The notes under the pieces: generated by a model
What the model saw: the letters and a program-made list of their open reading frames with translations, nothing else
Told to the model about the DNA's origin: nothing
Databases searched by the model: none
Program-made: the position numbers and the translations under genes
Shown: positions 1 through 33,181 of the stretch, piece by piece
Numbering within the stretch: the stretch's first letter is position 1
Layout of the letters: each line of letters starts with the position of its first letter
Assembly (NCBI GenBank): GCA_024695285.1
Contig: JAILIM010000019.1
Coordinates: 1-37,908, forward strand
DNA length: 37,908 nucleotides
Source: Bacteroidales bacterium
GTDB taxonomy: Bacteria; Bacteroidota; Bacteroidia; Bacteroidales; UBA932
Direction: 5' to 3'

Positions 1-3
1 TTG

Positions 4-153: not shown

Positions 154-951
154 CTATTTGCCGTTGGCGAGGAAAGAGGCCTGGACGGGGCCGATGCGGC
201 GGTAGCCCTCGGTGGTCATGTGGAGCTTGTCGCTCTCGTAGAAGCCGGAATAGTTGTGGATGTCGACGCCCTGCAGGCTGAACTGGTCGAGCACAGGCAC
301 GGCGTGGTAGCGGCAGCACTCAATCTGTGCCTTGACGTAGTCGGCGAAGGTTTTGCCGATGGTGTTGGTGTCCTTCGAGAAGGGATTGTAGCCGGAATCA
401 CGCTTGAAGAAGCGCAGCGAGGTGAAGAAATAAATCTCCGCATCGGGGTTCTTCTCGCGCAGCTTGCGTATGCAGTAGTTGATGCCGCCGCACTGGGTGT
501 CGCGCCGCGACTCGTTGTAGTTGTCGTATTCAGTGTAATCCTTCCAGCTGCCGCATTCCTTGTTGCCCATGAAGTCGTTGGTAGAAGCCCAGAGCACATA
601 GACGTCGTGGACACCCGCCGTATCCACCTGGCGCTGAATGGAATAGCCCTTGCTCAAAGCGAAGCCGGCCCCGCCGACTCCGTAGGTCGTGACCTCAGCG
701 CCCAGCAGGTCTGCCCAGATCTGCTTCGCCGCATCTGACTCCGGCCGCACGGAGAGCGAGCCTCCGAACACGGCGATGTGCTTGCCATAGTTTTTGCAGC
801 CCCAGTATGGACTGATCTTCGGACGGTTGATCGACGGTTTCAGATGGTGCGACGACGGATCGGGCACACGGGAATCGGGGGCGGCGAACGAAAGGGCCGC
901 AGTCAAAAGCAGGAAGCCGAAAAACAGCTTCAGGAAACTAACTCTTTTCAT
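154..951 (-). CDS. SGNH/GDSL-type esterase, secreted
   Basis: A 265-residue protein with a signal peptide (KRVSFLKLFFGFLLL then a small-residue cleavage region). After about residue 55 it shows SGNH hydrolase blocks: FGGSLS with the nucleophilic Ser (block I; the usual GDS Asp is Gly here), VGGAG near block II, STNDF for the Asn block, and SDKLHMT for the Asp-x-x-His block near the C-terminus. The family removes acetyl or acyl groups from sugars and other esters. It is the last gene of the cluster and overlaps the upstream symporter gene by 14 nt, so it is probably co-translated. Its target cannot be read from the sequence; a de-O-acetylase of the polymer handled by the locus is an inference. 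Confidence 0.8.
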   Translation of the reverse strand: MKRVSFLKLFFGFLLLTAALSFAAPDSRVPDPSSHHLKPSINRPKISPYWGCKNYGKHIAVFGGSLSVRPESDAAKQIWADLLGAEVTTYGVGGAGFALSKGYSIQRQVDTAGVHDVYVLWASTNDFMGNKECGSWKDYTEYDNYNESRRDTQCGGINYCIRKLREKNPDAEIYFFTSLRFFKRDSGYNPFSKDTNTIGKTFADYVKAQIECCRYHAVPVLDQFSLQGVDIHNYSGFYESDKLHMTTEGYRRIGPVQASFLANGK

Positions 952-2329
952 ATTCTTTTAAAGCCCGTATTGCCATAGGGCACAATACTATAAGTGCAAT
1001 CACATTTATCCACGCGGTCAGCCCCACCCCGATGTCGCCCATCTGCCAGATAACGCCCGCTTCCTTCAGCGAGCCGAACACCACCATACCCAGCAGCGCA
1101 ATACGGTAGAGCCATATCAGCACCTTCTCCCCCTTCGCCGCGCCGCCCTTCCCGGAGCACAGGTAGATGATGCTGGACTCGCCGTAGAAATAATAAGCCA
1201 TAATCGTCGTGAAGGCGAAAAACAGCAGCGCAATCCCCACGAAAGCGCTTCCGAAGCCCGACACCACCGAATCCACCGCCGCCTGCGTGTACCCCACGTA
1301 GTTGGCGCCCAGTTCCGGGGCGTTAGCCACCAGAACCTCCCCAGTCTTCGCGTCCAGCACGTTATAGTTGCCTGAGCACAGGATCATCAGGGCCGTAGCG
1401 GTGCATATAAGGAGCGTGTCCACATAGACCGAAAACGCCTGCGCGAGCCCCTGCTTGGCAGGATGCGACACCGACGCCGACGCCGACACAATAGCACCGC
1501 CGCCCTGGCCCGCCTCGTTGGAGAAAATCCCCCGCTTCACGCCCATCATAATGGTGGAGCCCAGGATGCCGCCCGCCACCGGCTGAATGCCGAAAGCATT
1601 GGTAACTATTGCTTTAAGCACTCCCGGCACCACTTCGATATGGTTCGCAATCACGATGCACGTAATCACGATATACCCCAGCGCCATGAACGGCGTCACG
1701 ATTGAAGCCACCCGCGAAATGCTCTTGATGCCCCCGATAATCACGAGGCCCAGCAGGAACGCGAGCCCGAGGCCGCAGGCAAGCGGCGGGAAGCTGAAAG
1801 CGTTGCCGAGCGCCGACGTGAGGCCGTTGGACTGCACGGGGCTCAGCAGCAGGCCGTAACCCACCAGCGACAGCACCGAAAACAGCACCGCCAGCCACTT
1901 GCACTTCAGCCCCTTCTCGATGTAGCACGAAGGCCCGCCGCGGTAGCCGGTGTCGTGGTGGAACTTGAACATCTGCGCCAGCGTCGACTCCACGAAAGCC
2001 GTCGAGGCCCCGAAGAAGGCGATAATCCACATCCAGAACACAGCCCCCGGGCCACCCAGGGCGATAGCGGTAGCCACTCCCACGATGTTGCCGGTGCCCA
2101 CGCGCCCGGAAAGGGCCACGCAGAACGCCTCGAACGACGAAATCCCCTTCTTGCTGCCGTCCTCCTCCTTGTGCGCAGGCGCAAACAGCGAGCGCACCAT
2201 CAGCCCGAAACGCCGCAGCTGCACGAAGCGCGTCCGCACGGTGAAATACAGGCCGGCACCGACCAGGAGCACCACCAGTGCGGGGCTCCACACGATGCCG
2301 TTGACGGCTGATATGAAGGACTCAAACAT
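938..2329 (-). CDS. Alanine/glycine:cation symporter (AGCS family)
   Basis: About 463 residues of a polytopic inner-membrane protein. It carries AGCS signatures: GRVGTGNIVGVA, GGPGAVFWMW and KRGIFSNEAGQGGGAI. The family imports alanine or glycine with Na+ or H+. The frame stays open to 2392, but the ATG at 2329 (MFESFISAV) is preferred, since it gives the normal AGCS N-terminus and leaves one base after the upstream stop at 2331. It follows a periplasmic peptidase fusion and a glutamate symporter, which suggests uptake of amino acids released from peptides. The substrate within the family (Ala, Gly or D-Ala) cannot be told from sequence. Confidence 0.9.
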   Translation of the reverse strand: MFESFISAVNGIVWSPALVVLLVGAGLYFTVRTRFVQLRRFGLMVRSLFAPAHKEEDGSKKGISSFEAFCVALSGRVGTGNIVGVATAIALGGPGAVFWMWIIAFFGASTAFVESTLAQMFKFHHDTGYRGGPSCYIEKGLKCKWLAVLFSVLSLVGYGLLLSPVQSNGLTSALGNAFSFPPLACGLGLAFLLGLVIIGGIKSISRVASIVTPFMALGYIVITCIVIANHIEVVPGVLKAIVTNAFGIQPVAGGILGSTIMMGVKRGIFSNEAGQGGGAIVSASASVSHPAKQGLAQAFSVYVDTLLICTATALMILCSGNYNVLDAKTGEVLVANAPELGANYVGYTQAAVDSVVSGFGSAFVGIALLFFAFTTIMAYYFYGESSIIYLCSGKGGAAKGEKVLIWLYRIALLGMVVFGSLKEAGVIWQMGDIGVGLTAWINVIALIVLCPMAIRALKEYEKS

Positions 2330-2330
2330 A

Positions 2331-5006
2331 CTAATAAAGGTTCCAGTAAGGTATAAGCTCAGGTGTGCCGCAGCTAAGGCGTAACTGCTCATCGCTCAGG
2401 TACTTCTTATCCACAGCCATACGGAACATATACATGCGCCACCACTCGGCCTGCATCTGGATGTAGCCGTCCTGCCCGCGTCCGAGGCCGAAGCTGTTCT
2501 CTGCCATCCAGCGCACCACGGAGCCGTCCGGGGCTGTCTCTACGCCGCACATCGCCATGGCGTGGGCCGAGGACACGTTGCGGCTGAGGAACTGTTCCCG
2601 CTTGTCCATGTGCCATGGGCCGCCGTCCTGCGCGCCCTCGATGGCGAGGCGGGTGTCGTAGATACCTTCGTCGGCAAGCGCCTGCTGGTATGTGTCCACG
2701 GTGAAGTAGAACTTGTCGCCGCCCTTCAGCGACGCCTGCCCTATCCTCTCAAGCTCCTCGACCGGCAGGTTCAGGAACACCCACTCGGGCGCGTCTGCAG
2801 CGCTCCTGGAGCCCTGAACGCGGTACACCTTGTTGTAGGGCCGCGTGGGGTCGTTCATCAGCATCACGTAGCGCTCCGACAGGCCGCCGAGGCCCAGAGA
2901 GTCGCGGAACTCGGCCGGCGTCCAGCTGCGGCCGCCGTACTCGAACGAAGCCGGAGGCACCCCGAGGGTCATGGCGAGCACCTTCCAGGCTTCGGAGAGG
3001 GCCTCGGCGCGCACCGACTCAGGATCGGAGGTGTCGCGCATGCGCAGCCCGTAGCAGCGAAGCAGCGCACGGAGCTGCTGCAGCAGAGGCCCGGAGGCCG
3101 TGGAGGTGGGAGTGCCGGGCATGGCCTCCTCAGGCACAATGCCGTATTTTTCAATGAGATAGAGGGCGTTCATGAACTGTCCTCCGTCCCAGGTCGGGCG
3201 CCGGAACGCCGTCTCGTTCCAGCGGCTGTCGAGGGCCTCCCTGCGGTGATCCCAGACGCCGGCCAGGAACAAGTTGGCCTTCTCCATCATGTCGTAGAAG
3301 TAGGCGTAGACCGTGGAGAAACGGAGGTCGCCGCGGAGCACGTTGGCCGTGGAAAAGTACCAGCAGCGGCCGGAAGAGCCCTGGTCGGTGATGCCGGAAG
3401 CGGGCAGGAACACGTCCAAGCCAAGGGTGTCAGCCCGCTCGCTGCCGCCTGCTTCAAGCAGGGCCTTGCGCTGCATATCGGGAATCTCCACGGGAGAGAC
3501 TGCGACCTCGGAAGCGAAAAGTGCAGCGTCCGGCATAGCGGGCGAGAGGCTTGCCGGGGCCTCGAAAGGCGGGCGGCGGCTCCCCATCAGGGGCTCGAAG
3601 CGGAAGTCCGGGCCGCGCCGCTCCTCAAACTCCTTGCGCACGGCGGCGAGCACTTCGGGCTTCGTGTAGAGTTCATAAGCCGAGAGGAAGAGCACACGGG
3701 CAGCCCCGAGGGCGCCCTTGGTGCCTATCGTAGTGCCGCCGGACGCCACCTGCTGCCAGCTGTGGCCGACTCCGCCGGGCGCGAAGCAGGCGTAGCGGAA
3801 ACTGCCCGTGGGCACCGCCCAGGTCACGTTTCCGACGTCGCTGGACACGTAGGCCTCGTAGCCCTCGTCGGCAGGCGGCACCACCACCGAAAGACGGTCG
3901 ATCAGCGCGGCATCGACGCCGGACTCGGCGGCCACGGCACGTGCGAACTCCATTTCGCGGGCATCGAGCTTGATGCCGCCGACGCTCTCCAGGCTGCGGC
4001 TCACCAGCTCCGACATGGCCTCGTTGGGCAGGCGCTCGTAGTTGCCTGACACCAGCTCGTAATCCATGGTCGTGCCGGTGCCCATCGCGGCGCCTTCAGC
4101 GGCAGCGAGGGCGCGCTCCAGCAGCTCCCTGACCACCTCGCGGGAGGGGCTGCGGAAGTAATACTTGACGCTGGCCCTGTCGGGCACCACGTTGGGGGCC
4201 TTGCCCCCGTCGGTAATGACATAGTGGATGCGGCTCGTCTGCGGAACGTGCTCGCGCATCAGATTGATCATATGGTCGAAAGCCTCAACCGCGTCAAGCG
4301 CCGAACGGCCCTCCTCGGGAGCTCCGGAAGCGTGCGAAGCGCGGCCGCTGAATTTGAAAAGCACCTGCACGTTGGCAAGACCACTCTGCTTGTTCACCGT
4401 GTTGCGGGTGTCGGGATGCCAGTCCAGCATAGCGTCCAGGCCTTCGAAAACGCCTGCGCGCATCATGTAGGCCTTGCCGCCCCCTCCTTCCTCAGCCGGG
4501 CAGCCGAAGAGCTTTATCGTGCCCTGGCGGCCTTCGGCGAGCCATTCAGCCACTGCGGCAGCTCCGGCCACCGAGCCGGTGCCGAGCAGGTTGTGGCCGC
4601 ATCCGTGACCGTTTGCCCCGGGCACGAGCGGCTTCCGGTATGGGACCGTGTCCTGCGACATGCCGGCAAGGGCGTCGTACTCTGCCATCATGCCTATGAC
4701 GGGCGCGCCGCTTCCGTAGCTGGCCACGAACGCCGTCGGGATGCCGGCCACACCGCGTTCCACGGTGAAGCCGCGGCTTTCCAGGAAGGACGCCAGCTCC
4801 TCCGCGCTGCGCTCCTCTGTGTAGGCCGTCTCAGCATAGTTCCAGATGCGCTTCTGCAGCGCATCATAGACGGAGAAACTCCTGTCCAGGTACTGCAGGC
4901 CAGCCGCGGGCGTGTTCCGCACGGACTTCTTTCGGGCGGCCAGGCCCTCTGGGGCGGCGGCGCACACCAGCAGCAGCGCCGCGATTATGTATACTATCTT
5001 TTTCAT
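2331..5006 (-). CDS. Secreted M20 amidohydrolase fused to C1B aminopeptidase (bleomycin hydrolase-like)
   Basis: An 891-residue two-enzyme fusion with an N-terminal signal peptide (residues 1-23). Residues about 38-480 are an M20D metallo-amidohydrolase of the AbgB type, with ANGHGCGHN (metal-binding C136/H138), PAEEGGGG (E172/E173) and DWHPDT (H197). AbgB-type enzymes cleave glutamate from p-aminobenzoyl-glutamate and similar amides. Residues about 520-891 match the C1B papain-like family (PepC/bleomycin hydrolase): DQGSSGRCWYFSTAN with C548, SSAHAMAMCG with H815 and MAENSFG with N837, a complete Cys-His-Asn triad. PepC is normally cytoplasmic, so a signal peptide and fusion to M20 are unusual. 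The gene overlaps gltS by 4 nt (ATGA) and abuts the alanine symporter gene. Likely role: periplasmic trimming of Glu/Ala-containing peptides. Domain identities are secure; the substrate is inferred. Confidence 0.88.
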   Translation of the reverse strand: MKKIVYIIAALLLVCAAAPEGLAARKKSVRNTPAAGLQYLDRSFSVYDALQKRIWNYAETAYTEERSAEELASFLESRGFTVERGVAGIPTAFVASYGSGAPVIGMMAEYDALAGMSQDTVPYRKPLVPGANGHGCGHNLLGTGSVAGAAAVAEWLAEGRQGTIKLFGCPAEEGGGGKAYMMRAGVFEGLDAMLDWHPDTRNTVNKQSGLANVQVLFKFSGRASHASGAPEEGRSALDAVEAFDHMINLMREHVPQTSRIHYVITDGGKAPNVVPDRASVKYYFRSPSREVVRELLERALAAAEGAAMGTGTTMDYELVSGNYERLPNEAMSELVSRSLESVGGIKLDAREMEFARAVAAESGVDAALIDRLSVVVPPADEGYEAYVSSDVGNVTWAVPTGSFRYACFAPGGVGHSWQQVASGGTTIGTKGALGAARVLFLSAYELYTKPEVLAAVRKEFEERRGPDFRFEPLMGSRRPPFEAPASLSPAMPDAALFASEVAVSPVEIPDMQRKALLEAGGSERADTLGLDVFLPASGITDQGSSGRCWYFSTANVLRGDLRFSTVYAYFYDMMEKANLFLAGVWDHRREALDSRWNETAFRRPTWDGGQFMNALYLIEKYGIVPEEAMPGTPTSTASGPLLQQLRALLRCYGLRMRDTSDPESVRAEALSEAWKVLAMTLGVPPASFEYGGRSWTPAEFRDSLGLGGLSERYVMLMNDPTRPYNKVYRVQGSRSAADAPEWVFLNLPVEELERIGQASLKGGDKFYFTVDTYQQALADEGIYDTRLAIEGAQDGGPWHMDKREQFLSRNVSSAHAMAMCGVETAPDGSVVRWMAENSFGLGRGQDGYIQMQAEWWRMYMFRMAVDKKYLSDEQLRLSCGTPELIPYWNLY

Positions 5007-6325
5007 TTAAACCAACCTTTGATGCCGCTGAAGAGGAGGATTCCGGCACCGGCGGCAAGGCACACGGCCACGAAAAGCCAGCCGAGCCCGTGGCAGAACG
5101 CCAGCGGCGAAAGGCTCACCAGCGCGATCTCCACCGGCGCGATATACAAATACGCAAACGCATAATCATCCAGGCAGCCGCTCTTCGAATCCGGATCCGT
5201 GATGCGCAGGAGCGCTATGCCCATAGCCATCGTGCCCGTGAACCAGCCCCAGGTGAAGATCGACTTCTCGAAGGGCGCAGTCCTGTGGATGCGGCTGCCC
5301 ACCCAGAACACGTAGAACAACGTCACCACCAGGCCGACGGCCAGCAGTATCAGCAGCGGCACCACGAACTTGCCCACTATCTCCAGCTTGATGGAAGCCA
5401 CGCCGAAGGCCACCAGATAATCCGTAAAAGCGCCGCTGAGGTGCCCCACGATGGGCTTTGAAAGATGCTCCTCAACCTTCACCCTGGCAAGTATCCACCG
5501 CACGAGTATGCCCACGATGAAGGCGCAGCTGAACACCGGCAGCATCAGCGCGGGCCATATCAGCGAGATCAGCTTCGCGAGGCCGTAGCCGCCTAGGGCT
5601 ATCATGGCCACCACTGCGAAGTTGAAGGTCATCGAGTCCAGCGAGATGGCGGAGAACGACGCCTTGCCCATGCTGACGCGCTTGTCGGGCGGCAGGATGC
5701 CCGTCCGCAGTTCCGGCGACAGGTGCTCGAAAGCGCAGATATACTGCGTCTTGCCGCGGGATGCGCCCCACGAAATCAGCCACATTCCTATGACCACGGA
5801 AGCGATTATACCCACGGTCGCGGCCGTCATCGCCAGCGACTGCATCTCTTCGACGCCGTAGGAAGCGAAGGACTCCCCTATCGCCGCCGCCGTGCCGTGG
5901 CCTCCGCAGAATCCGGCGGGCATAGAAAGGCCGAAGGAGCCGTCCACCGGCCAGATGCGGCTGAGCAGCCAGAGCCCGAGCGCGCCGCCGAGCGCCCACT
6001 GCAGCAGCATGCCGGCCTGCGAATAGGCCCACATGCGGCCGATACGGGCCCCGCCGTCGGCCTTGCGCACGCCCCCGGAAGTGAGGGGTATGCAGCTGAA
6101 CACCAGCGCGATGAGTATGCCGGCATAGGTGCCGAGCTTGTCGGAGAGCGGCAGCCAGCCGAGCACCTCCGGGCCAAGGATCAGGCCGAAGAGGCCGGCC
6201 AGCAGGCTGGGCGGTATGAAAAAACGCTGGATAAGGCGCACCTTGGACCTCAGCAGCTTCCCGAGAAGCAGCAGAAGCGACACGATGCCGACATCGACGA
6301 GCAGGGTCCAGGGGGTGAAACTCAT
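5003..6325 (-). CDS. gltS: Sodium/glutamate symporter GltS
   Basis: A 440-residue polytopic membrane protein of the GltS (ESS) family. Two homologous membrane halves flank a hydrophilic loop near residues 180-225. Typical stretches are RFFIPPSLLAGLFGLILGPEV, GFCGGHGTAAAIGESF and GWFTGTMAMGIALLRITDPDS. The family imports L-glutamate with Na+. Both ends overlap neighbours by 4 nt (ATGA), so it is translationally coupled to the Ntn hydrolase upstream and the peptidase fusion downstream. The placement suggests uptake of glutamate freed from the peptide part of the target polymer. Confidence 0.9.
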   Translation of the reverse strand: MSFTPWTLLVDVGIVSLLLLLGKLLRSKVRLIQRFFIPPSLLAGLFGLILGPEVLGWLPLSDKLGTYAGILIALVFSCIPLTSGGVRKADGGARIGRMWAYSQAGMLLQWALGGALGLWLLSRIWPVDGSFGLSMPAGFCGGHGTAAAIGESFASYGVEEMQSLAMTAATVGIIASVVIGMWLISWGASRGKTQYICAFEHLSPELRTGILPPDKRVSMGKASFSAISLDSMTFNFAVVAMIALGGYGLAKLISLIWPALMLPVFSCAFIVGILVRWILARVKVEEHLSKPIVGHLSGAFTDYLVAFGVASIKLEIVGKFVVPLLILLAVGLVVTLFYVFWVGSRIHRTAPFEKSIFTWGWFTGTMAMGIALLRITDPDSKSGCLDDYAFAYLYIAPVEIALVSLSPLAFCHGLGWLFVAVCLAAGAGILLFSGIKGWFK

Positions 6326-7449
6326 AGGGCGAATCTGTGTTTGTGGCGTTTGAAACGATTATCAGACTTGTGGTTGAAGCGCTCTACGGCGGGCCTGTCG
6401 AAGCCGGCGCGGCGCATCCTGCGGTCCAGGCGGCGGCCCTTTCGGAACTCCCGCCCCTCCGCCCTGCGAATGGTGCGCATGACCTTGCGGAGCGATGCTA
6501 TATCGACTTTCTTGAGCTCGTCCCGGTCGGAGTGGATGCTCAGGAAGAGCGCAGCGGCAAGGCGGTTGGCCTCTGAATCGCCTGTGAGGCATTGAGGGAT
6601 ATCCTCCCCCGCCGCCACCCACACGGGGATGGCATAGCAGCACGGCGTGTAGCCCGGCGCGCACCACATCAGGCCGCTGTCAGGAGCGTCCCCTTCTCCG
6701 GGAGCCTCGATGACCACGCAGGCCGTGGTGGTGCTCCTGGGAATGAAGTCGTGCTCGTTGAGCCAGCCGCGCCGGAGCCCCTTGAGGGCATCGTCGCCGC
6801 CGTTGTAGTAGCTGCGGCCGATACGGAAGAAGAACTCCGGATCAAAGGTGCTGCGGGAGGACATCAGGGAGGCCATGGTTTCGTAGCGGGCAAAGCCGCG
6901 GCCGCGCTCCGGGTCGCCTGTCAGCGAGTAGTTCGTGCGGAAAAGGTAGCCGCCCGGCTCCACGTCGAAGCGGGTGTAGTCGTAGTCAGAGACCTCGAAA
7001 TACGCCGCGCCGCCGGCTGCATCGACGACGCCGAAGTTGGTGCTCAGCAGCATCGGGCGCTCTTTTTCCTGCAGCAGCCGCTCAAAATCGTCGACTGTGC
7101 GGCAGCAGCCCAGGGCCTGCGCCATCAGTGGCCCGGCCTTGGTGTCGAAGCCCAGTGAATCCGGGCGCAGGTTGTAGGACAGGTTGTTCATCACCCCGAA
7201 GCCTGCGGCGTTGATGCCGGCGTAGGCAAGGGTGCAGAGGCTGTCGCTGGTCGGAAAAAGCGCCGTGTAGGCTATCTGGACGCCGTCTTTTATGTGGACT
7301 ATCCGGTTGTAGGGATCGGAGGCGTCGCGCTGCTTCCAGAGCATGGGGCGCCCGGACGCGCTGGCCCCGGCCGACACGACGGCTGTCGTGCAGGCAAGCA
7401 GGTCGGCGCCCAGCAGCAGGGCGGCCGCTATGATCCACAACCGTTTCAT
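6322..7449 (-). CDS. Ntn hydrolase, C45/choloylglycine-hydrolase-like amidase
   Basis: A 375-residue exported protein. After a signal-like segment (residues 1-19) comes LLACTTAVVSAGAS with C20, then GRPMLWKQRDAS, the pattern of C45/C59-type N-terminal nucleophile hydrolases. In these the Cys becomes the mature N-terminus and attacks amide bonds (penicillin V acylase, bile salt hydrolase, acyl-CoA:6-APA acyltransferase). Further family-like stretches are YAGINAAGFGVMNN and YFEVSDYDYTRFDV. The same Cys lies in a lipobox-like LLAC, but lipidation would block an N-terminal Cys nucleophile, so cleavage by signal peptidase I is more likely. The C-terminus is basic. The bond cleaved in this locus is unknown; an amide or gamma-glutamyl bond is an inference. 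Confidence 0.75.
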   Translation of the reverse strand: MKRLWIIAAALLLGADLLACTTAVVSAGASASGRPMLWKQRDASDPYNRIVHIKDGVQIAYTALFPTSDSLCTLAYAGINAAGFGVMNNLSYNLRPDSLGFDTKAGPLMAQALGCCRTVDDFERLLQEKERPMLLSTNFGVVDAAGGAAYFEVSDYDYTRFDVEPGGYLFRTNYSLTGDPERGRGFARYETMASLMSSRSTFDPEFFFRIGRSYYNGGDDALKGLRRGWLNEHDFIPRSTTTACVVIEAPGEGDAPDSGLMWCAPGYTPCCYAIPVWVAAGEDIPQCLTGDSEANRLAAALFLSIHSDRDELKKVDIASLRKVMRTIRRAEGREFRKGRRLDRRMRRAGFDRPAVERFNHKSDNRFKRHKHRFAL

Positions 7450-8636: not shown

Positions 8637-8644
8637 TGTCCGAT

Positions 8645-9496: not shown

Positions 9497-9537
9497 TAAA
9501 GGCCTGAAATTTTATTGTAAAAAAATAATTGTAAAAA

Positions 9538-9643
9538 AATAAAATAAGCTGCTGCTGCCTGCCGGTTACGGCCTTCGGCCTATCCCTCCCACTAACGACT
9601 GCGTGGGCGCAGACGGCCGGCCGGCAGCACAGCTTATTTTATT
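9538..9643. repeat. Large palindromic hairpin element
   Basis: AATAAAATAAGCTG (9538-9551) is perfectly complementary to CAGCTTATTTTATT (9630-9643). Inside these arms, GC-rich segments around TGCCGG and CCGGCAGCA continue the pairing imperfectly, giving a foldback of about 106 nt. It fills most of the gap between the fimbrillin-like gene and the kinase gene. The AT-rich ends make it terminator-like in both directions; it could also be a non-autonomous palindromic element. No transposase is nearby. Confidence 0.75.
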
Positions 9644-9648
9644 CAATA

Positions 9649-11205: not shown

Positions 11206-11208
11206 GTT

Positions 11209-11340
11209 TTATTCGAACAACAATTCTTCTTCTTCCGTCATGTTGACGATGGAGGCTTGGCCTTGCCCGGACAGGGCAACCACAGTCTGCATTTCTACCA
11301 TGTAGATTTTGCACTGGGGAGTTAAAAACTCTTGTTTCAT
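11209..11340 (-). CDS. Small protein, 43 residues, function unknown
   Basis: The minus strand reads ATG at 11340 to TAA at 11209. The protein begins MKQEFLTPQCKIYMVEMQ, has a VVALSGQGQ centre, and ends in an acidic tail (TEEEELLFE). It ends 3 nt before the start of the fimbrillin-like lipoprotein gene and begins 12 nt after the GHL10-like gene, so it sits inside the operon. From memory, Bacteroidetes often carry short proteins of this general look, with a K-x-Y-x-x-P/PQ start and an ASG or ALSG motif, before fimbrillin-like lipoprotein genes. No function is known to me. It could also be a translated leader. Confidence 0.55.
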   Translation of the reverse strand: MKQEFLTPQCKIYMVEMQTVVALSGQGQASIVNMTEEEELLFE

Positions 11341-11352
11341 ATTATTTATAAA

Positions 11353-12240: not shown

Positions 12241-12253
12241 ATGTGTGTGATTA

Positions 12254-17790: not shown

Positions 17791-17831
17791 AAAAATGAAT
17801 TTTGAATGGTTGATAAAGTGTTATATATATG

Positions 17832-19996: not shown

Positions 19997-20000
19997 AGCT

Positions 20001-21854: not shown

Positions 21855-23661
21855 AACTGCTGAAGAAGCGTTTTTCGGTGATGTTGCCGAGGGGTTTGCC
21901 GTCGCGGGCGAAAGCGCGGGCCTTGATGACGTCGTCCTTCCCTACCATGAAGGGGGTGCCGTCATACACCGGGGAAGCGACTGTCGGTTCGCTGCCGTCT
22001 ATGGTGTAGTGGACGACGCCCTCGGGATAGTCGAGCTCGAGGTTCATCGGCTTGGGGAACGGGAGGCGGCGGTCGTAGTCGAAGATGACGTCGTAGTAGA
22101 CCGGACAGTAGCCTATGTGCTTCATGTCCAGGCGCTTGAGTATCTTCGGCATGCGGAGGCGGAAGTTCTCCCAGTCCTTGTTTGGACGGCTGGTCCACGC
22201 CACCTCGGAGGCCGCGACGTTGCGCGGGAAGGCGAACCACTCGGCCGTCTCGTTGTCGGGGATGTACTCCGTCCAGAGGCAGGTCTCGTAGCCGATGATG
22301 TACTTCTTGCTCAGGTCGGGGATGGAATCCACGGCCGGATAGTAATTGTAGACCTTCTTCAGGGGCATGAACACCTCCTGGGCCAGGTCGTCAGGCTGGT
22401 CGTCCTGGTGGTTGTCCAGGTAGCACCAGCGGTTGGGGGTCAGCACCACGCGGATGCCACGGCGTATGCCGCGGGCCGCAGGGGCGTGGCCGCGGTAGGA
22501 CATCGCTATTGGGTCCTCGAGCGCGCCGCCGTCCAGGATCTCGTCCCAGCCGATGCAGGTCTTGCCGTGCTCCTTCAGGAAGTCGCCGATGCGCTTCACG
22601 AAGAAGGTCTGCAGCTCCTCGACGTCCTTGAGTCCCAGCACCTTCATCAGGTCCTGGCAGTACTTGCTCTCGAGGTACACATCCTTCGGAGCCTCGTCAC
22701 CGCCGATGTGGTAGATGGGAGACGGGAATAGCTCGAACAGCTCCATGAACACGTCCTCGAGGAACTGGAAGGTCGTCGCCGTCGGGGCATACAGGTTCTT
22801 CCATATGCCCCAGCGGGTCTCGACTTCATATGAGCGTTCCGGGAAGCAGCTGAGCTCCGGGTAGGCGGCGATGGCGGCGGTGCTGTGGCCGGGGATCTCC
22901 ACTTCGGGAATCACGGTCACGCAGCGCCTGCGGGCGTATTCCACCACCTCGCGGATATCATCCTTGGTGTAGTATCCGCCGTGGGGGATGCCGTTGCCGA
23001 TCCAGCTGTGGAAGGCAGTCTCCTTGCGCCAGGAGCCGATTTCGGTCAGGCGGGGATACTTGTCTATCTGGATGCGCCAGCCCTGGTCTTCGGTCAGGTG
23101 CCAGTGGAACATGTTCTGCTTGTGCATCGCCATGAGGTCGATGAACTTCATCACCTCCTCCTTCGGGAAATAGTAGCGGCCGCAGTCGAAGAGGAAGCCC
23201 CTGTAGGGGAACTCCGGCTCGTCGTCGATGGTGCAGCAGGGCGCCTCCCATTTGATCTTCTTCACCGGTTTGTCGGAGAAAATCTCGGCGGGAAGCAGCT
23301 GCAGCAGGGTCTGGAGGCCGTAGAAGGCCCCGGGGACCTCGCTCGCCTCGACGAGCACGCCGGTGGGCTTCACCGTTAGCCGGTAGGCTTCCTTGGCGAA
23401 GCCGCCGGCCTTGCGCAGCTCGATGGCTGGGCCGGAGCCTGTGAGGCCGAAGCCGGTGGAGGCCTTGACCGTGGCGGCGAAGTCCTCGGCTATCTCGCTG
23501 AAAGCCGGGTCGCCGACCTTGATGCCGGTCGTCTTGCCTATCGTGAACACGCCGTCGGCGGGCTCCAGGCTGCGGGGGGTCGGTACTATGTCATATCTCG
23601 GGGGCTGCGACACGGGCGCAACCACGGTGAGGAGTGCAGCAAGCAGAACAGAAAGAATCAT
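21841..23661 (-). CDS. GH20 beta-N-acetylhexosaminidase, secreted
   Basis: A 606-residue protein with a signal peptide (residues 1 to about 16) and no lipobox Cys, so probably periplasmic. The GH20 barrel has FPYRGFLFDCGRYYFP, MFHWHLTEDQGWRIQIDKYP (184-203), VIPEVEIPGHS and HIGGDEAPK with Asp322-Glu323. The C-terminal segment has the YTIDGSEPTVASPVYDGTPF chitobiase-like domain. The reaction is release of terminal beta-N-acetylhexosamines. With its lipoprotein paralogue downstream it suggests stepwise removal at the surface and in the periplasm. It overlaps the upstream ceramidase-fold gene by 4 nt (ATGA). Confidence 0.92.
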   Translation of the reverse strand: MILSVLLAALLTVVAPVSQPPRYDIVPTPRSLEPADGVFTIGKTTGIKVGDPAFSEIAEDFAATVKASTGFGLTGSGPAIELRKAGGFAKEAYRLTVKPTGVLVEASEVPGAFYGLQTLLQLLPAEIFSDKPVKKIKWEAPCCTIDDEPEFPYRGFLFDCGRYYFPKEEVMKFIDLMAMHKQNMFHWHLTEDQGWRIQIDKYPRLTEIGSWRKETAFHSWIGNGIPHGGYYTKDDIREVVEYARRRCVTVIPEVEIPGHSTAAIAAYPELSCFPERSYEVETRWGIWKNLYAPTATTFQFLEDVFMELFELFPSPIYHIGGDEAPKDVYLESKYCQDLMKVLGLKDVEELQTFFVKRIGDFLKEHGKTCIGWDEILDGGALEDPIAMSYRGHAPAARGIRRGIRVVLTPNRWCYLDNHQDDQPDDLAQEVFMPLKKVYNYYPAVDSIPDLSKKYIIGYETCLWTEYIPDNETAEWFAFPRNVAASEVAWTSRPNKDWENFRLRMPKILKRLDMKHIGYCPVYYDVIFDYDRRLPFPKPMNLELDYPEGVVHYTIDGSEPTVASPVYDGTPFMVGKDDVIKARAFARDGKPLGNITEKRFFSSYDKK

Positions 23662-25013
23662 AGTGCTTTGGTTATGGTCTTTTCAATGGCTCCGGCGAAG
23701 GCCTCGGGCATAGTCTCCGAGAGCGGATAGGGAGCCTTAATATATACATGCATCTGGTCGATTTCATACTCGTAGCCCTTGCGGTATTCGTAGGCATGGG
23801 CGGACGGGAGGTATGAATTCTGGCCGTTGGTGTAGCCGGCGAAGATGACGGTGCGTCCCGGGAATTTCTTCCTGGCTTCCATCTGGTACTCGCAGAACGG
23901 CTCGCCCTGGGTGAAGAAGAACACGATGCCGCGGATGTTGACGGCGCCCATCGTGAAGTCGAGGGTGTTGTGGACCTTGCCCTGGGCGTAGCGCTCCAGC
24001 ATCTGGTCCTTCCAGCCGGCGACGTCGTCTTTCCAGGAGGAAGAGACTGTCTTGTCCCATTTGGAAATCTCTTCGGCGTGGGCCGTTATGGCCTCAGGGG
24101 TCACTTCGGCGATGCGGAACGGGAGCGACACGGTGTCGTTGACCACCTTGAATTCCCCGCTGGATGGCACCTTCTCGAACTTCACCTTCATCAGCGAGTC
24201 CGCCAGGCAGGCGCCGCATTCCTCGGCATAGTCGACCATCTTGCAGCCCTTGGCCGGGTCCATGTTTCCGGCGGCACCGGTCAGCTGGAACACGTCGCCG
24301 CCCCAGGCCTCTTTAAGGATCCTTCCGCAGACGCCCGGATAGTCGGACGACACCAGCAGGCTCTTGTAGCCCATGCACACAGGGTGGCAGGCCAGATTCA
24401 CAACGGACACCACCGGCGCGCCGCTCTTTTCCAGGAAGCGGACCACATAGACGTCGCGGTCCACGGGGCCGGTCTCCTTCTCGCAGCGGTTGCCGTTGAT
24501 GCTGGTCTGAGCCTTGCCGACCTCCATCCTGAAGGGACGGAAGGCCGCCTCGTCGGTGATGGTCTTCACGGCGTTCTCGACGAGCGTCTTGTGGAGGCGT
24601 TCCTTATGCGAGTAGTTGCTTCCGCCCGGCTCGGCGCGCCATCCGCCGTTGCGTGGGGCCGAGTGGGTGTGGATGCAGTGCATGAATATGCGGTCCAGCG
24701 GAAGTCCGCTCTTTTCGGAAATCTCCTTGCGCCACTCCAGCGACAGGTCAGGGGAAATCTCCATCAGGTCGTTGGAAATGATGCACACCTTGTCGGCGCC
24801 GCTGCTGATGACGAGGCAGTGGGTGTTCAGGGGCATGTGCAGGCCGTCCGAGAGCTCGTTGCGGGCCGCGAAACCGGCCAGCATCGTGTGCTCATCGGGG
24901 GTCGTGGAAATGTCGGCGGCGTTGTAGTTGAGTTTCAAAGCCTCCTCCCCGCAGCCGGCGAGGCTGCAGAGGAGAAGGATTGAAAACGCTGCCAGTACGG
25001 GACGGAATCTCAT
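23658..25013 (-). CDS. Neutral/alkaline ceramidase-fold amidase, lipoprotein
   Basis: A 451-residue lipoprotein (SLAGC, C21) resembling the N-terminal catalytic domain of neutral/alkaline non-lysosomal ceramidases. Motifs are IFMHCIHTHSAPRNGG (H115, H117; zinc ligands in the family), NGNRCEKETGPVDRDV, NLACHPVCMG (H210), SSDYPGVCGRIL and LTGAAGNMDP. The immunoglobulin-like C-terminal domain of true ceramidases is missing. Family members hydrolyse N-acyl amide bonds with zinc. Such truncated homologues are common in Bacteroidetes polysaccharide loci without a proven role. Here, between SusD and two hexosaminidases, it may cut an amide between sugar acid and peptide or an N-acyl group; that is inference. 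Confidence 0.75.
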   Translation of the reverse strand: MRFRPVLAAFSILLLCSLAGCGEEALKLNYNAADISTTPDEHTMLAGFAARNELSDGLHMPLNTHCLVISSGADKVCIISNDLMEISPDLSLEWRKEISEKSGLPLDRIFMHCIHTHSAPRNGGWRAEPGGSNYSHKERLHKTLVENAVKTITDEAAFRPFRMEVGKAQTSINGNRCEKETGPVDRDVYVVRFLEKSGAPVVSVVNLACHPVCMGYKSLLVSSDYPGVCGRILKEAWGGDVFQLTGAAGNMDPAKGCKMVDYAEECGACLADSLMKVKFEKVPSSGEFKVVNDTVSLPFRIAEVTPEAITAHAEEISKWDKTVSSSWKDDVAGWKDQMLERYAQGKVHNTLDFTMGAVNIRGIVFFFTQGEPFCEYQMEARKKFPGRTVIFAGYTNGQNSYLPSAHAYEYRKGYEYEIDQMHVYIKAPYPLSETMPEAFAGAIEKTITKAL

Positions 25014-25015
25014 CT

Positions 25016-27070
25016 TTAGTAAATGTATCCGGGGTTCTGGAGTATACGGCCCTTGGTCTTGTCGATTTCGGTCTGAGGAATCGGCATCAGGTAGTTAGGA
25101 TAGTCCTCGGAGTTCTCGACGCCGGGCTTGTTGGAGCACTTGATCACACCGGTCGGACGGACGCGGTTCTTGTTGGGGAACCACTTCTGCGTAGGGGAGA
25201 TGGTCAGGCAGCACTCGCCGTAGTCGACCCTGTAGGTCTTGCCCTTCCACTCGTAGTCGACGAGGTAGAGCACGTCGTTGCCGCGGTTGGAGTCGATGTA
25301 GGAGGTGCGCTCGCTGGTGTTGGCCCAGTAGTAGTTGAGTTCCTTGTTGGAGAGGTCGTACGGCTGGACGCAGCGGTAGAGCGTGTCAGGCTTGCTGCCG
25401 CCGGTCAGGAGCATAGTGCGGGTGCCGGCGAACGGCACGTTCTCATAGCCCACGGCAATCTTGAGACGGCGGGTGTCGAAGTAGCGGAAAGCCTCGTATG
25501 CCAGCTCGACGCGGCGCTCGTTGACGACTTCGTCCCAGAGGGCGTCGCCGGAATCGGTCACTGGAGGCATCTTCACATCCTCGCGGCCACGGACCTTGTT
25601 GAGGTACTCGCGGCACTCGGCTTCCTTGCCGACATGATATGCAGCCTCAGCGGCATTGAGGTACATCTCACCCATGCGGAACCAGGGATACATCACGTTG
25701 CCTATCATGGAGTCGGAGATGTACTTGTCGGGCATGTACCACTTGGTCAGGCCGCTGCCGCCGGTGTTGGTGATGTGGATCTGGTCGCTGGCCTTCTTGG
25801 AAGGGAGCCAGTCGGGCTTGCCCTTCTCGAAGTCGGCACGGGTGCCGGTGGTCACGTAGTCGCCGACCTTCTGGTCTTTCTCGAACAGGAGGTAGAGCTG
25901 GAGCACATCCTCGCGGGACTTGCCTTCCTTATCCACCCAGTAGTAGATCTTCCTCGGATAGATGACGCAGTGGTGGAAACGCGGATCGCGGCCCTTGAAA
26001 GGAAGGGCGGGATTGTAGCCGGAGCCTTCTTCGTAGATCTTCTTGCCGTTGGCCATTTCGTAGTCGAGCCACATTGCCTGTGTGGGGTTGAAGCTCTCCC
26101 AGCCGCCGCCGCCGAAGTCCATCAGACCATAGAGCAACTGAGCCTTGTGGGGCTGGTTACTGCTCTGCACGAAGTACTTGGCCCAGATGACCTCCGGGGA
26201 ATTGATGTCGCGCCAGAAGCCGTCGTAGGTGTCGTCGAGCTGATAGGCTCCGTCCACGTCGGCACGGTCGCATATGGCCTTGGCAGCCGCATAGGCATCT
26301 TCCCACTTCTTCTGGGAATAGGCTCCGCGGAAGACGCCGCCCTCAGGCTGGGTCTGGTCGTTGAACAGGGGGGATGCCACGATGAGCGTAAGACGGCAGC
26401 GGAGTGCGAGGACGCAGTCCTTGTGGACGCGGCCGAGGGCGGTGCCTCCCTTTTCGGGCAAGAGCTCGTAGGCCTTGTCCAGGTCGCCGTTGATGAAGGT
26501 CACGCAGTCGTCGAAATTGGCACGGGTCTCGTCGAAGTCGGCACCGATGTCGTCGTGGGGCTTGTCAACCAGGACCACGCCGCCGTAGCGCTCGATGAGG
26601 TTGGTGTATGCCCAGGCGCGGAGGAAGTAAGACTCACCGAGGAGGCGGGTCTTGGTGCTCTCGGACATGTCGGAGCCCTTCTCCTCAACGTACCTGATGA
26701 AGTAGTTCAGGCGGTAGATGTATTCGTAGGCACGGTTCCAGATGTTGAGGAAAGTGGTACGGGTGTTATGCGCCGGGCCGCCTTCATCCATGGGGATGAT
26801 GGAGCTCGGGGTCATCGAACCGTCGGCGATGTAGCGGGTGGAGGTGCCGCCGTAGCGGAAGAATCCCTCATCCGAAATACAGCCGATGTTGCCCTCGGTG
26901 AACGGGTCGGGCAGGACGGTGTAGATGGCGTTGATGTAGCTCTCTGCAAGGGCGTCGCTGTTGAACACGGCCTCCTCGGAAAGCTTGTCAAGGGGTTTCT
27001 TGTCCAGGAACCCGTCGTTGCAGGCAGTCAGTACTGCGGCAAATGCAAGGATAGAGAATATCTTTTTCAT
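25016..27070 (-). CDS. SusD-like substrate-binding lipoprotein
   Basis: A 684-residue RagB/SusD-family outer-membrane lipoprotein (LTAC, C17, then NDGFLDKKPLDKLSEEAVF, the classic SusD N-terminus). Family segments include AESYINAIYTVLPD, LLGESYFLRAWAYTNLIERYGGVVLVD, GEMYLNAAEAAYHVG, VNERRVELAYEAFRYFDTRRLKIA and IPQTEIDKTKGRILQNPGYIY (in part). Length is at the upper end of the family. It caps the SusC porin and binds oligomers for import. The gene starts 12 nt after susC stops. The ligand is not predictable from sequence. Confidence 0.95.
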   Translation of the reverse strand: MKKIFSILAFAAVLTACNDGFLDKKPLDKLSEEAVFNSDALAESYINAIYTVLPDPFTEGNIGCISDEGFFRYGGTSTRYIADGSMTPSSIIPMDEGGPAHNTRTTFLNIWNRAYEYIYRLNYFIRYVEEKGSDMSESTKTRLLGESYFLRAWAYTNLIERYGGVVLVDKPHDDIGADFDETRANFDDCVTFINGDLDKAYELLPEKGGTALGRVHKDCVLALRCRLTLIVASPLFNDQTQPEGGVFRGAYSQKKWEDAYAAAKAICDRADVDGAYQLDDTYDGFWRDINSPEVIWAKYFVQSSNQPHKAQLLYGLMDFGGGGWESFNPTQAMWLDYEMANGKKIYEEGSGYNPALPFKGRDPRFHHCVIYPRKIYYWVDKEGKSREDVLQLYLLFEKDQKVGDYVTTGTRADFEKGKPDWLPSKKASDQIHITNTGGSGLTKWYMPDKYISDSMIGNVMYPWFRMGEMYLNAAEAAYHVGKEAECREYLNKVRGREDVKMPPVTDSGDALWDEVVNERRVELAYEAFRYFDTRRLKIAVGYENVPFAGTRTMLLTGGSKPDTLYRCVQPYDLSNKELNYYWANTSERTSYIDSNRGNDVLYLVDYEWKGKTYRVDYGECCLTISPTQKWFPNKNRVRPTGVIKCSNKPGVENSEDYPNYLMPIPQTEIDKTKGRILQNPGYIY

Positions 27071-27082
27071 ATCAGGTTCGGA

Positions 27083-30000
27083 TTAGAAGGTTACTTTTAC
27101 ACCGAAGTTGAAGATCTTGACCTGAGGATAGGTCTGGTAGCCTTCGTCACTGGTCTCCGGGTCGATGGTCTTGAGTTCGGAGAATGTCAGGAGGTTGTAG
27201 CCTGCAGCATAGAAGCGGATGTTCTTGATGCCGACCTGGTAACCGAACACGTTGCCGGGCAGGGTGTAGCCCAGCTCGAGGTTCTTCAGACGCAGGAAGG
27301 CTGCGTTCCTGTAGTAGTAAGAAGTACGGTACACACCGCCGTTGCCGATGTTGGAGGCGATACGCGGGTGGTCCGTGTCGGGGTTGTCAAGGGTCCATGC
27401 ATTGACGGCGGCGTCCATCTCGATGTTGCCGGACACGGGGTCGGTCAGAGGTGCGTAGTAGTAGCGCGCAAGGCCCTGGCCCTGGAGGAGAATCGAGAGG
27501 TCGAAGTTCTTCCACTGGAGCTCGCTGTTGAGACCGAAGACTATCTGGGGCACTGCGGTCAGGTCGCAGCGGAGGCGGTCCTGGGAGTCGATGATGTTGT
27601 TGCCGTCAAGATCCTTGAAGTAGAAGTCGCCGAGACCGGCGCCGGCCATCTGGATATGCTTCTCAAGGTCTTCGTTGGAACGGTTGATGCCCTCAACCTG
27701 GTAGATCAGGGTAGCACCCATCGGGTGGCCTGTCCTGTTCATGTACTGGTGTTTCTCGTCGTAGGGGGTCTCATCCATGTACTCGATGGTGTTCTTCGCG
27801 TACATGATGTTGCCGGCCACGCGGTAGCGGAGGTCGCCGCCGAGGGCCTTGTTCTCATGGGTGAGCTGGAGCTCGACACCCTTGTTGGACACGATACCGA
27901 TGTTCTCGTCGGGGAGATTGCCGGTCAGGCCGGTGTAGTACGGAACGGAGGCGTTGCGGGTGCAGAGAATGTTGCTGCGCCGGGTGTGGAAGAATTCGAG
28001 TTCCCATCCGAGGAGGCCGTGGTTGATGTTACCGTCGAGGCCGATGTTCCAGGTGCGGGCGACTTCCCAGGTGATGTTGGCGTTGGGCACGCCGTCCGGG
28101 AGGATGTAGTTAACTTCCTTTTCGCCGTAGAGGGCACGGTAGGCGGTGCCGGTCGTGTAGGCGTAGGTGGCAAGGTACTGGAATGCGTCCACCTGGTCGT
28201 TACCCTGCTCGCCATAGGAGGCGCGGAGCTTGAGGTTGGTCAGCCAGGGCCAGTTGTCCTTGATGAAGGGCTCTTCGGAAATACGCCAGCCGGCGGACAC
28301 GCCCGGGAACACGCCCCAGCGCTTGTCGGCCGGGAAGTTCTCGGAGCCGTCCCAGCGCACGAGGGCCTGGATCATGTACTTGCTCTTGTAGTCGTAGCCG
28401 ACACGGGTGAAGAAGGAGCGGCGGGCAGTCTCGGCCGCATAACCGCCGATCTTGTAGAATGACTTGTCGGCGTTGCCGGCGAAAAACTGGTCAAGGATGT
28501 CGGAGTCGTACTTCTCGATGTTGGCGTTGAAGCGGTCGCGGCGGAAGCTGCTCTGCTCCATACCGGCGAGGGCGGTCACGTGGTGGTCACCGAAAGTGCG
28601 GTCGTAGTTGATGTTCGCGTTAATCGTCAGCGTGTGGTAGTTGTTCTGGGTTTCGCTGAGGGTAGGGGTCGTAAAGACGCCGCTGTCCCTTTCGCGGTAA
28701 GTCTCCGTGATTTCATCGTAGGAGTAGCAGGGCCAGTTCTTCGACCAGTTCTTGTTGAAGTTGTTGTGGACGTCGTAGGCCAGGACTGCGTTGATGGAGA
28801 GTCCCTTGGTCAGGGCGTGGAGGTCGTAGTTGCCGCGGAAGGTGGTGTTGATGGTGTTGTAGGTCGTGCGGTCGTAACCGGTCAGGTCCTGCACCAGGGC
28901 GGCGGGGTTGGAGCCGCTGCGGATGTATCCGTTGGGATAGTAAGGGGCGCTGGAGGCGTAGCGGCGGGTGGTGATGTAGAAGATACCGTAGGAGTCCGAA
29001 GGGTAAGCCGAGTAGTTCTTGTGCTGCTGGCGGACGTTCAGGTCAACCCCGAGCTTGAAGTCGTTGGTCACCTGGATGTCGATGTTGGAGCGGACGTTGT
29101 ACTGGTTGAAGTTGGTGGCGGACTTGTAGTAGATACCATCCTGATACTGGCCGTTGAACTGCACGAAGTAGCTCACCTTGCCGGCGCCGCCCTGCAGGCT
29201 CACTCCGTATTTGTGCTGGGAGGAGAAGGGCTTGATGATTTCCTTGAACCAGTCGGTGTTGGGGTAGTTGATCAGGTCGTCGCCGTCGATGTAGTGCTGG
29301 ATCTGCTCCTCGGTGTAGATCGGGGAAGCGCCGGTGATTGCGCGGGCGGCGTTGTAGGCGCGGGCGAATGACACTGCGTCGGCCATCTTCAGCAGGCGGG
29401 TCGGCGACTGCATACCGTAATCGTAGGTGAAGGTCACCGTCGGGTGGCCGTCGGTGCGGCCGCGCTTGGTCGTCACGAGTATGACGCCGTTTGCGGAACG
29501 GGCACCGTAGATGGCTGCGGAGGCGTCCTTCAGCACGTTGATGCTCTCGATTTCCTCACCGGTGAGGCGGGAGAATTCATCGCCGCGGCCGGGAACGCCG
29601 TCGATGATGATGAGCGGGGAGTTGTTGCCGAGGGTGGAGCGGCCGCGGATGTACATGACGGCATCGTCGCGTCCGGGCTCACCGGAACGGTTGTTGACGA
29701 TGACGCCGGACATACGGCCGGCAAGACCCTGGGAGAGGTTGACTGAAGAGTTCTTCACAAGTTCCTCGCCGGAAGTGGAGGTCACGGAGCCGGTGAGGGT
29801 GATCTTGGACTGCGTACCGTAGCCGATAGCCACGGCTTCGTCGAGCACGAGGGTGTCGTCGGCGAGGGAGAAGTCCACGGTGGTGCGGCCGTCGACTTTG
29901 ACGGTCTTGTCTTCATAGCCCATCAGGCTGGCCGTGATGGTCGCTTTCGGGGAGACGTTGCTCAGGGAGTAGCGTCCTTCCGTATCGGTCATGGCGCCGT

Positions 30001-30166
30001 TCTGGGTGCCGTCGACGATAACCATCGCGCCGGGAAGGGCTTCTCCTTTGCTGTCGGTCACGCGGCCCTGTACTTTGATGCGGGTCTGCTGGGCCAGGGC
30101 ACCGTATGACGGACCGGCCAGCAGCGACAGGACTGCAAGCAGGATAAGGAATAGTTGTTTTTTCAT
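27083..30166 (-). CDS. SusC-like TonB-dependent outer-membrane transporter
   Basis: A 1027-residue SusC/RagA-family protein. It has a signal peptide (1 to about 26), a carboxypeptidase-regulatory-like domain (about 30-110, VQGRVTDSKGEALPGAMVIVDG), the plug (about 118-235, with DEAVAIGYGTQSK, MYIRGRSTLGNNSPLIIIDG and INVLKDASAAIYGARSANG), then a long beta-barrel ending in VKIFNFGVKVTF with the terminal Phe. No long STN domain precedes the regulatory domain, so it is not obviously an anti-sigma signalling type. It is the first gene of the minus-strand cluster and has a recognisable promoter. With the SusD lipoprotein it would import oligomers cut at the surface. Confidence 0.96.
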   Translation of the reverse strand: MKKQLFLILLAVLSLLAGPSYGALAQQTRIKVQGRVTDSKGEALPGAMVIVDGTQNGAMTDTEGRYSLSNVSPKATITASLMGYEDKTVKVDGRTTVDFSLADDTLVLDEAVAIGYGTQSKITLTGSVTSTSGEELVKNSSVNLSQGLAGRMSGVIVNNRSGEPGRDDAVMYIRGRSTLGNNSPLIIIDGVPGRGDEFSRLTGEEIESINVLKDASAAIYGARSANGVILVTTKRGRTDGHPTVTFTYDYGMQSPTRLLKMADAVSFARAYNAARAITGASPIYTEEQIQHYIDGDDLINYPNTDWFKEIIKPFSSQHKYGVSLQGGAGKVSYFVQFNGQYQDGIYYKSATNFNQYNVRSNIDIQVTNDFKLGVDLNVRQQHKNYSAYPSDSYGIFYITTRRYASSAPYYPNGYIRSGSNPAALVQDLTGYDRTTYNTINTTFRGNYDLHALTKGLSINAVLAYDVHNNFNKNWSKNWPCYSYDEITETYRERDSGVFTTPTLSETQNNYHTLTINANINYDRTFGDHHVTALAGMEQSSFRRDRFNANIEKYDSDILDQFFAGNADKSFYKIGGYAAETARRSFFTRVGYDYKSKYMIQALVRWDGSENFPADKRWGVFPGVSAGWRISEEPFIKDNWPWLTNLKLRASYGEQGNDQVDAFQYLATYAYTTGTAYRALYGEKEVNYILPDGVPNANITWEVARTWNIGLDGNINHGLLGWELEFFHTRRSNILCTRNASVPYYTGLTGNLPDENIGIVSNKGVELQLTHENKALGGDLRYRVAGNIMYAKNTIEYMDETPYDEKHQYMNRTGHPMGATLIYQVEGINRSNEDLEKHIQMAGAGLGDFYFKDLDGNNIIDSQDRLRCDLTAVPQIVFGLNSELQWKNFDLSILLQGQGLARYYYAPLTDPVSGNIEMDAAVNAWTLDNPDTDHPRIASNIGNGGVYRTSYYYRNAAFLRLKNLELGYTLPGNVFGYQVGIKNIRFYAAGYNLLTFSELKTIDPETSDEGYQTYPQVKIFNFGVKVTF

Positions 30167-33173: not shown

Positions 33174-33181
33174 CCAGCGAT

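Follow-up and report, generated by a model that had tools for sequence, protein, structure and literature searches.

A single co-directional gene cluster of about 30 kb (positions 154-30166, minus strand, with divergent genes to its right) occupies most of a 37,908-nucleotide stretch of contig JAILIM010000019.1 from a Bacteroidales bacterium (assembly GCA_024695285.1), hereafter called the window. Homology and gene company suggest that the cluster is probably a polysaccharide-utilisation locus (PUL) for pseudomurein, the cell-wall polymer of Methanobacteriales, as had been proposed in a reading of the DNA made from its letters and open reading frames (the sequence-only reading). The co-directional arrangement and the genes named in that reading were borne out by the open reading frames and their Pfam and NCBIfam matches, and three further genes, the C45, ceramidase-like and GDSL genes, had been omitted from it. 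The window has the features by which a PUL is recognised, namely adjacent susC and susD genes and exported enzymes encoded in the same direction. No regulator family was found among the window proteins scanned with Pfam, and a sensor-regulator may sit outside the window. The features of the cluster are as follows, with lipoprotein signals assigned by eye.

27083-30166, minus strand: SusC-type TonB-dependent transporter (Pfam Plug and CarbopepD_reg_2)
25016-27070, minus strand: SusD-type surface binding lipoprotein (Pfam SusD_RagB and SusD-like_3)
23658-25013, minus strand: Ceramidase_alk-like amidase lipoprotein (Pfam PF04734, 33.7 bits, cut-off 32.1)
21841-23661, minus strand: GH20 beta-N-acetylhexosaminidase b (Pfam PF00728, E 1.4e-103)
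20001-21854, minus strand: GH20 beta-N-acetylhexosaminidase a, lipoprotein (Pfam PF00728, E 6.7e-120)
19169-19996, minus strand: MurQ-like SIS etherase, diverged paralogue (NCBIfam MurQ; motif GTGG[KR] ... E-x-PNTYG)
17832-19172, minus strand: GHL10/DUF4015-like lipoprotein bearing an LTD domain, here called GHL10b, putative glycosidase (sub-threshold Pfam matches to DUF4015 and LTD)
13420-17790, minus strand: 1456-residue lipoprotein with an N-terminal pseudomurein-binding (PMB) domain, BACON and four repeat modules of about 240 residues (profile, structure, Pfam BACON)
12254-13354, minus strand: transglutaminase (TG) lipoprotein, PMB domain plus transglutaminase-fold peptidase (PF01841 65.5 bits; PMBR 18.1 bits)
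11353-12240, minus strand: second GHL10-like lipoprotein, here called GHL10a, putative glycosidase (DUF4015 in Pfam at 32 bits, cut-off 27)
9649-11205, minus strand: 518-residue repeat lipoprotein with one module of about 240 residues (residues 278-519 of the open frame)
8645-9493, minus strand: BadF/NagK-like amino-sugar kinase (weak NCBIfam NagK, E 6.7e-6, far below cut-off; no Pfam match)
7446-8636, minus strand: FHS/NagP-like permease (NCBIfam NagP 271.6 bits, cut-off 625; gluP above cut-off)
6322-7449, minus strand: C45-type Ntn hydrolase, candidate periplasmic amidase (NCBIfam C45_proenzyme, 48.2 bits, cut-off 85)
5003-6325, minus strand: GltS sodium/glutamate symporter (Pfam PF03616)
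2331-5006, minus strand: exported M20 amidohydrolase fused to a C1_2 peptidase (Pfam, NCBIfam TIGR01891)
938-2392, minus strand: Na/alanine symporter (AGCS), lineage-specific addition (Pfam PF01235)
154-951, minus strand: GDSL protein

In two of the lipoproteins there is a PMB domain like those of methanogens and of methanogen-virus lysins, and one of the two, TG, joins this domain to a transglutaminase-fold peptidase that resembles Pei and whose Cys-His-Asp triad is intact, as is supported by profiles, models and alignments. A total of 181 TG homologues were collected, and the alignments comprised the query plus 24 (A1) or plus 120 (A2) of them. The PMBR family (PF09373) was matched at E≤0.1 in 18 of 25 TG family members (best 1.5e-10), and 24 among the 120 relatives listed (of 181) bear precomputed labels for both PF09373 and PF01841. 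A PMB profile made from 11 regions delimited by eye, of which 8 were clostridial, 2 came from methanogens and 1 from a virus, matched the N-terminus of the Bacteroidales TG proteins with a probability of 97.8 and an E-value of 8e-13 over 136 columns, and that of the 1456-residue protein with 98.9 and 3.6e-17 over 145 columns, while in controls with shuffled columns the probability stayed at 0.4 (TG compared with the shuffled repeat protein) and 0.1 (the PMB profile compared with it). The N-termini of the two proteins also match each other by hidden Markov model (HMM), with a domain E-value of 2.7e-8 in the window and likewise in 33 of 46 loci. When the model of TG was compared with 350,542 PDB chains, the best by Foldseek E-value was PeiP, over 336 columns, and PeiP again came top when the TG model was compared with viral models; the same PDB search with the 1456-residue protein also placed PeiP first. 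The triad in a transglutaminase-like fold that marks C71/Pei peptidases is present in TG by Pfam and structure. Residues C291, C292, H325 and D340 are invariant in the 121 sequences of A2, and the triad is probably Cys291 or Cys292, His325 and Asp340, the assignment of the nucleophile to one of the two cysteines being presumptive. The PMB domain of the window TG is real despite its sub-threshold Pfam score. A PMBR-like domain with a transglutaminase-type peptidase had been recognised in the sequence-only reading, which named a lack of PMBR similarity as refuting; family HMM matches, profile-profile comparison and structure agree that the similarity is there, with the window copy below the Pfam cut-off.

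The repeat-bearing lipoproteins had likewise been described as binding proteins, and for the 1456-residue protein, in which profile and structure place a PMB domain, binding is predicted. The modules of about 240 residues match the TG N-terminus with 86.6% profile probability over 64 columns. A PMB identity for these modules was considered and set aside, and because their direct profile link to the PMB regions is weak (10.8% probability), PMB is claimed only for the N-terminal domain of the repeat protein.

Relatives of TG were found at 61 or more places in genomes sampled one per species, comprising 46 in Bacteroidales/Bacteroidia, 10 in Oscillospiraceae/Clostridia, 4 in Methanobacteriaceae and 1 in Omnitrophota; these counts are lower bounds, as the search used two peptide patterns. 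Many of the records have titles that mention rumen, omasum, reticulum, cecum or feces, or contain RUG codes, which we take to mean rumen. Among 50,697 phage records a strong match came only from Methanobacterium virus Drs3, with its PMB protein (E 1e-22); the next matches, in a Methanobacteriales virus and an Acinetobacter phage, were weak. Against a whole-protein profile the methanogen proteins scored 123-145 bits, Drs3 123, a viral contig protein (L062) 142, the clostridial proteins 96-145, the Omnitrophota protein 160 and a remote protein (L064) 39, whereas ordinary transglutaminases, found in 8 of 395 Bacteroidota genomes, reached 44-50 bits over the core only. Of these 395 genomes only that of the query holds a family member, and none was found in the other 394. 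In a tree with outgroup (12 Bacteroidales proteins, the remote L064, vir080, left out) the Bacteroidales TG proteins form one group (100/100), and together with the methanogen, virus and clostridial proteins they fall into one clade apart from ordinary enzymes (91/98). The Clostridia lie beside or within Methanobacteriaceae in the trees. A sister relation of viruses to the Bacteroidales proteins, seen at 94/84 in a first tree (17 of the 47 Bacteroidales proteins, i.e. 46 loci plus the window), was not kept with the outgroup, and therefore only the common clade is claimed. The relatedness check that had been suggested thus shows methanogens and a methanogen virus among the nearest relatives outside Bacteroidales, with ordinary Bacteroidota transglutaminases far off. 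Of the refuting outcomes named in the sequence-only reading, none of those open to computation was observed.

Some of these relatives are noted for themselves. The Oscillospiraceae/Clostridia proteins (L048, L053-L061), which group with Methanobacteriaceae, represent a second bacterial lineage with the enzyme, and two of their loci (L048 and L056) each have two PMB-transglutaminases near each other. The viral contig protein (L062:5671-6435) combines PG_binding_1 with TG and was placed close to the lysin of Drs3 by the first tree, and the Omnitrophota protein (L052:9998-10867) has two transglutaminase stretches and falls just short of the C71 profile cut-off (21.2 bits against 22).

The characterised pseudomurein-degrading enzymes are phage or prophage lysins in the literature covered. 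The methanogen phage lysins PeiW, PeiP and PeiR share with TG the order of N-terminal PMB repeats and a C-terminal transglutaminase-like Cys-His-Asp domain; unlike them, TG is a bacterial lipoprotein in a SusC/D locus that matches PF01841 and not PF12386, and it is remote in sequence, with 14% identity to PeiP in the structural alignment. The Drs3 protein (AXN53416.1) has the same PMB-TG order, 34.5% identity over 60% of the query and the shared GNCCD..H, GHV and C-terminal LPF segments, but it is viral, showed no lipoprotein signal and almost reaches the cut-off of the C71 profile (20.7 bits against 22). Proteins of methanogens themselves with TG and PMBR are the subject of PMC11532034 and PMC11915815; among them, the Group-III adhesin-like proteins of Methanobrevibacter smithii and Methanosphaera stadtmanae also place PMBR beside transglutaminase (PMC11532034; here L047), yet they are longer, membrane-anchored and archaeal, with Big-like domains. 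Seven bacterial PMBR proteins are mentioned in PMC2989375. In agreement with the sequence-only reading, which knew of no bacterial locus for eating pseudomurein, no report of bacterial pseudomurein utilisation was found among the titles and passages covered from the literature on pseudomurein with Bacteroidetes, PULs, Bacteroidales, rumen or degradation, subscription papers being outside this search.

The cluster is real and conserved and travels as a unit, and it is not a chance assembly, because the gene order recurs in other Bacteroidales species. Genes were counted at their own place in those 29 of the 46 Bacteroidales loci that extend about 10 kb to each side (20,900 bases or more), here called full-flank loci. 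TG, the repeat protein and both GH20 genes occur together in 29/29, at least one GHL10-like lipoprotein in 29/29 (both in 21, GHL10a in 23, GHL10b in 27), the kinase and the MurQ-like gene each in 28/29, and the FHS permease in 27/29. Since flanks end, the counts for the outer genes are lower bounds: C45 at least 22/29, GltS and the M20-C1 peptidase at least 18/29 each, the ceramidase-like gene at least 17/29, SusD at least 9/29 and SusC at least 2/29, most loci ending before SusC. The 518-residue repeat protein stands at a separate place in 9/29. The GDSL gene was seen in 0/46 loci, most of which end too early for it to show. The alanine/glycine symporter of the sequence-only reading is present in the window, but its place in the core pathway was rejected, as it occurs in only 2/46 loci and 20 loci with at least 1.4 kb past the M20-C1 gene do not have it there. 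Within 299 genomes of the same family TG was found in 13; a GHL10a-type protein (GHL10a or its longer paralogue) occurs in 13/13 of these and in 2/286 of the others, several of the 13 matches being the longer paralogue GHL10b. GHL10a homologues outside TG genomes (L146, L147) had no informative neighbours. A genome from goat omasum has two neighbouring TG clusters on a single contig (153495-192177; L015 and L024), and the second of them has its own SusC/SusD.

Pseudomurein has a beta-1,3-linked glycan of N-acetyltalosaminuronic acid and GlcNAc, the latter being GalNAc in M. ruminantium, together with all-L peptides and isopeptide bonds, and Pei enzymes cleave the Ala-epsilon-Lys bond (PMC2989375, PMC4592898, PMC2812497); E-gamma-A-pNA has served as assay substrate (PMC4592898). 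The PMBR similarity, the methanogen and virus relatives, the second PMB lipoprotein and the divergence of the MurQ-like gene support use of this polymer as the likely function of the cluster. The two PMB lipoproteins would hold the wall at the cell surface, where the TG peptidase would cut the peptide cross-links and the GHL10-like lipoproteins may open the glycan, and SusC/SusD would bring the fragments in. In the periplasm the GH20 enzymes would free GlcNAc or GalNAc, and the ceramidase-like, C45 and M20-C1 amidases and peptidases would strip and split the all-L peptides. Glutamate would enter by GltS and the amino sugar by the FHS permease, the kinase would phosphorylate this sugar, and the MurQ-like enzyme may take a 3-O substituent off an amino-sugar phosphate.

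Several results weigh against a pseudomurein substrate. The PMBR score of the window TG, 18.1 bits, is below the Pfam cut-off of 24.9, and in the 299 same-family genomes this profile at E≤0.001 finds 3, always within the TG gene, and misses 10 of the 13 TG genomes. The Peptidase_C71 profile PF12386 has no match to the window TG at E≤1, and TG is therefore classed as a PMB-transglutaminase relative and not as C71. TM-scores of TG against PeiP are low (0.31-0.37), and when only the catalytic fold is compared, PeiW and PeiP are equalled or surpassed by a generic Cytophaga transglutaminase (3isr). For the 1456-residue protein the TM-scores against PeiP are 0.18-0.24 with no Foldseek match at E≤0.001, and 0/105 homologues of its N-terminus bear a precomputed PF09373 label. 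One of the two GHL10-like genes is missing from 8/29 full-flank loci, and among the cluster genes none was recognised as acting on talosaminuronic acid or lysine. The sugar core is also present in clusters without TG, and the window MurQ-like protein passes NCBIfam NF003915 (287.8 bits, cut-off 168). Finally, PMB domains bind pseudomurein with three motifs and lysozyme-treated bacterial spheroplasts with two (PMC3124540), and therefore binding alone does not settle the substrate.

The last three of these points speak for a rival explanation, that the cluster scavenges peptidoglycan or muropeptides, with GH20, kinase, FHS permease and MurQ-like enzyme taking GlcNAc and N-acetylmuramic acid, the GHL10-like proteins cutting bacterial glycan and TG cutting peptidoglycan peptides. 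E. coli DigH is a GHL10-like enzyme that cuts bacterial glycan strands. The MurQ-like gene had been counted as support for this explanation and is the strongest argument for it, but it has diverged from canonical MurQ. The motif GTGG[KR]/E-x-PNTYG was found in 32/32 distinct locus copies and the canonical GTSGR/ASEI-x-PTYG in 0/32, whereas the non-locus copies in the same genomes are canonical in 12/12 (62 frames reduced to 44 distinct rows, 32 locus and 12 other), and 11 of 15 genomes hold both the locus gene and a canonical MurQ elsewhere. The window protein falls below TIGR00274 (237.3 of 302) and NF009222 (248 of 255), and only 2 of the 15 genomes have any protein above the TIGR00274 cut-off. 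To judge by these motifs and scores the gene is a diverged paralogue. Glutamates that align with what we presume to be the MurQ catalytic positions are kept, and an etherase reaction on another 3-O substituent is plausible. When the window protein was used as query in the 299 genomes, 22 scored at least 373 bits and the rest at most 280; the 22 are all 13 TG genomes and 9 without TG, and the idea that the gene is specific to pseudomurein was dropped because of the latter.

Seven of these nine TG-less genomes were examined (L139-L145), and their clusters have the ceramidase-like, GH20, MurQ-like and NagK genes in 7/7, C45 and a C1 peptidase in 5/7 each and FHS in 4/7. By tblastn they lack TG, the PMB repeat protein and a separate pair of GHL10-like genes, and their SusC proteins are 24-28% identical to that of the window. 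The core is therefore older or broader than pseudomurein; what the TG clusters have in addition is TG itself, the PMB proteins and separate lipoproteins of GHL10 type. The only TG-less cluster whose extra genes were scanned with Pfam (L139) encodes a GH18-GHL10 fusion and an N-formylglutamate-amidohydrolase-like protein. Peptidoglycan scavenging is further opposed by the Pfam scan of 18 cluster frames, in which no NlpC/P60, amidase, D-amino-acid peptidase, LysM, SLT, GH25, GH73 or DUF1343 match was found, and by the distribution of TG relatives in methanogens, their viruses, gut Clostridia and one Omnitrophota with none in the other Bacteroidota genomes sampled, and we regard it as unlikely.

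A role in adhesion, in which the cells would hold on to methanogens for the sake of hydrogen transfer and TG would trim adhesin-like proteins of the surface without any feeding on pseudomurein, would account for the large PMB-bearing repeat lipoproteins and agrees with the joining of TG and PMBR in methanogen adhesin-like proteins (PMC11532034), but the constant company of GH20, GHL10-like, kinase and permease genes, usually with GltS and peptidases, is catabolic, which makes this explanation quite improbable. A general locus for HexNAc-glycopeptides (chitin, N-glycans or mucin) with TG as an unspecific protease, to which the core shared by TG-less sisters and the GH18-GHL10 fusion of one of them might point, is about as improbable, given the different SusC, the PMB lipoproteins and the own GHL10-type proteins of the window cluster.

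A fuller version of the pseudomurein interpretation is put forward tentatively, and we consider it doubtful as a whole: a complete system for eating archaeal walls, in which the GHL10-like lipoproteins would cut the pseudomurein glycan, the MurQ-like enzyme would split 3-O-glycosylated GlcNAc-6-phosphate (talosaminuronyl-beta-1,3-GlcNAc-6P) by MurQ-type elimination, and gut Bacteroidales and, separately, gut Clostridia would graze on methanogens with a key enzyme taken from methanogens or their viruses. The substrate of the MurQ elimination itself is 3-O-lactyl-GlcNAc-6P. We know of no enzyme that cuts the pseudomurein glycan, and the GHL10-like proteins would be the first. If the pseudomurein interpretation is true, methanogen walls are food for gut bacteria and the locus offers new lytic enzymes, possibly the first pseudomurein glycosidases; it would also let one ask directly whether methanogens are grazed by rumen bacteria, a question relevant to methane emission.

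Directly past the 3' end of the cluster lies a tRNA-Ser (GCT) gene (window 3-92, minus strand), a possible insertion site. The G+C fraction is about 0.53 at window 8001-12000, which covers the kinase, the 518-residue repeat protein and GHL10a, compared with 0.57-0.66 in the other 2-kb blocks. The right flank (30323-37685) encodes an MsrA-GAF protein, a Ser/Gly/Asn-rich protein with no Pfam family, a GH92 protein and a DUF6935 protein, as well as a minus-strand GH28 frame that runs off the window.

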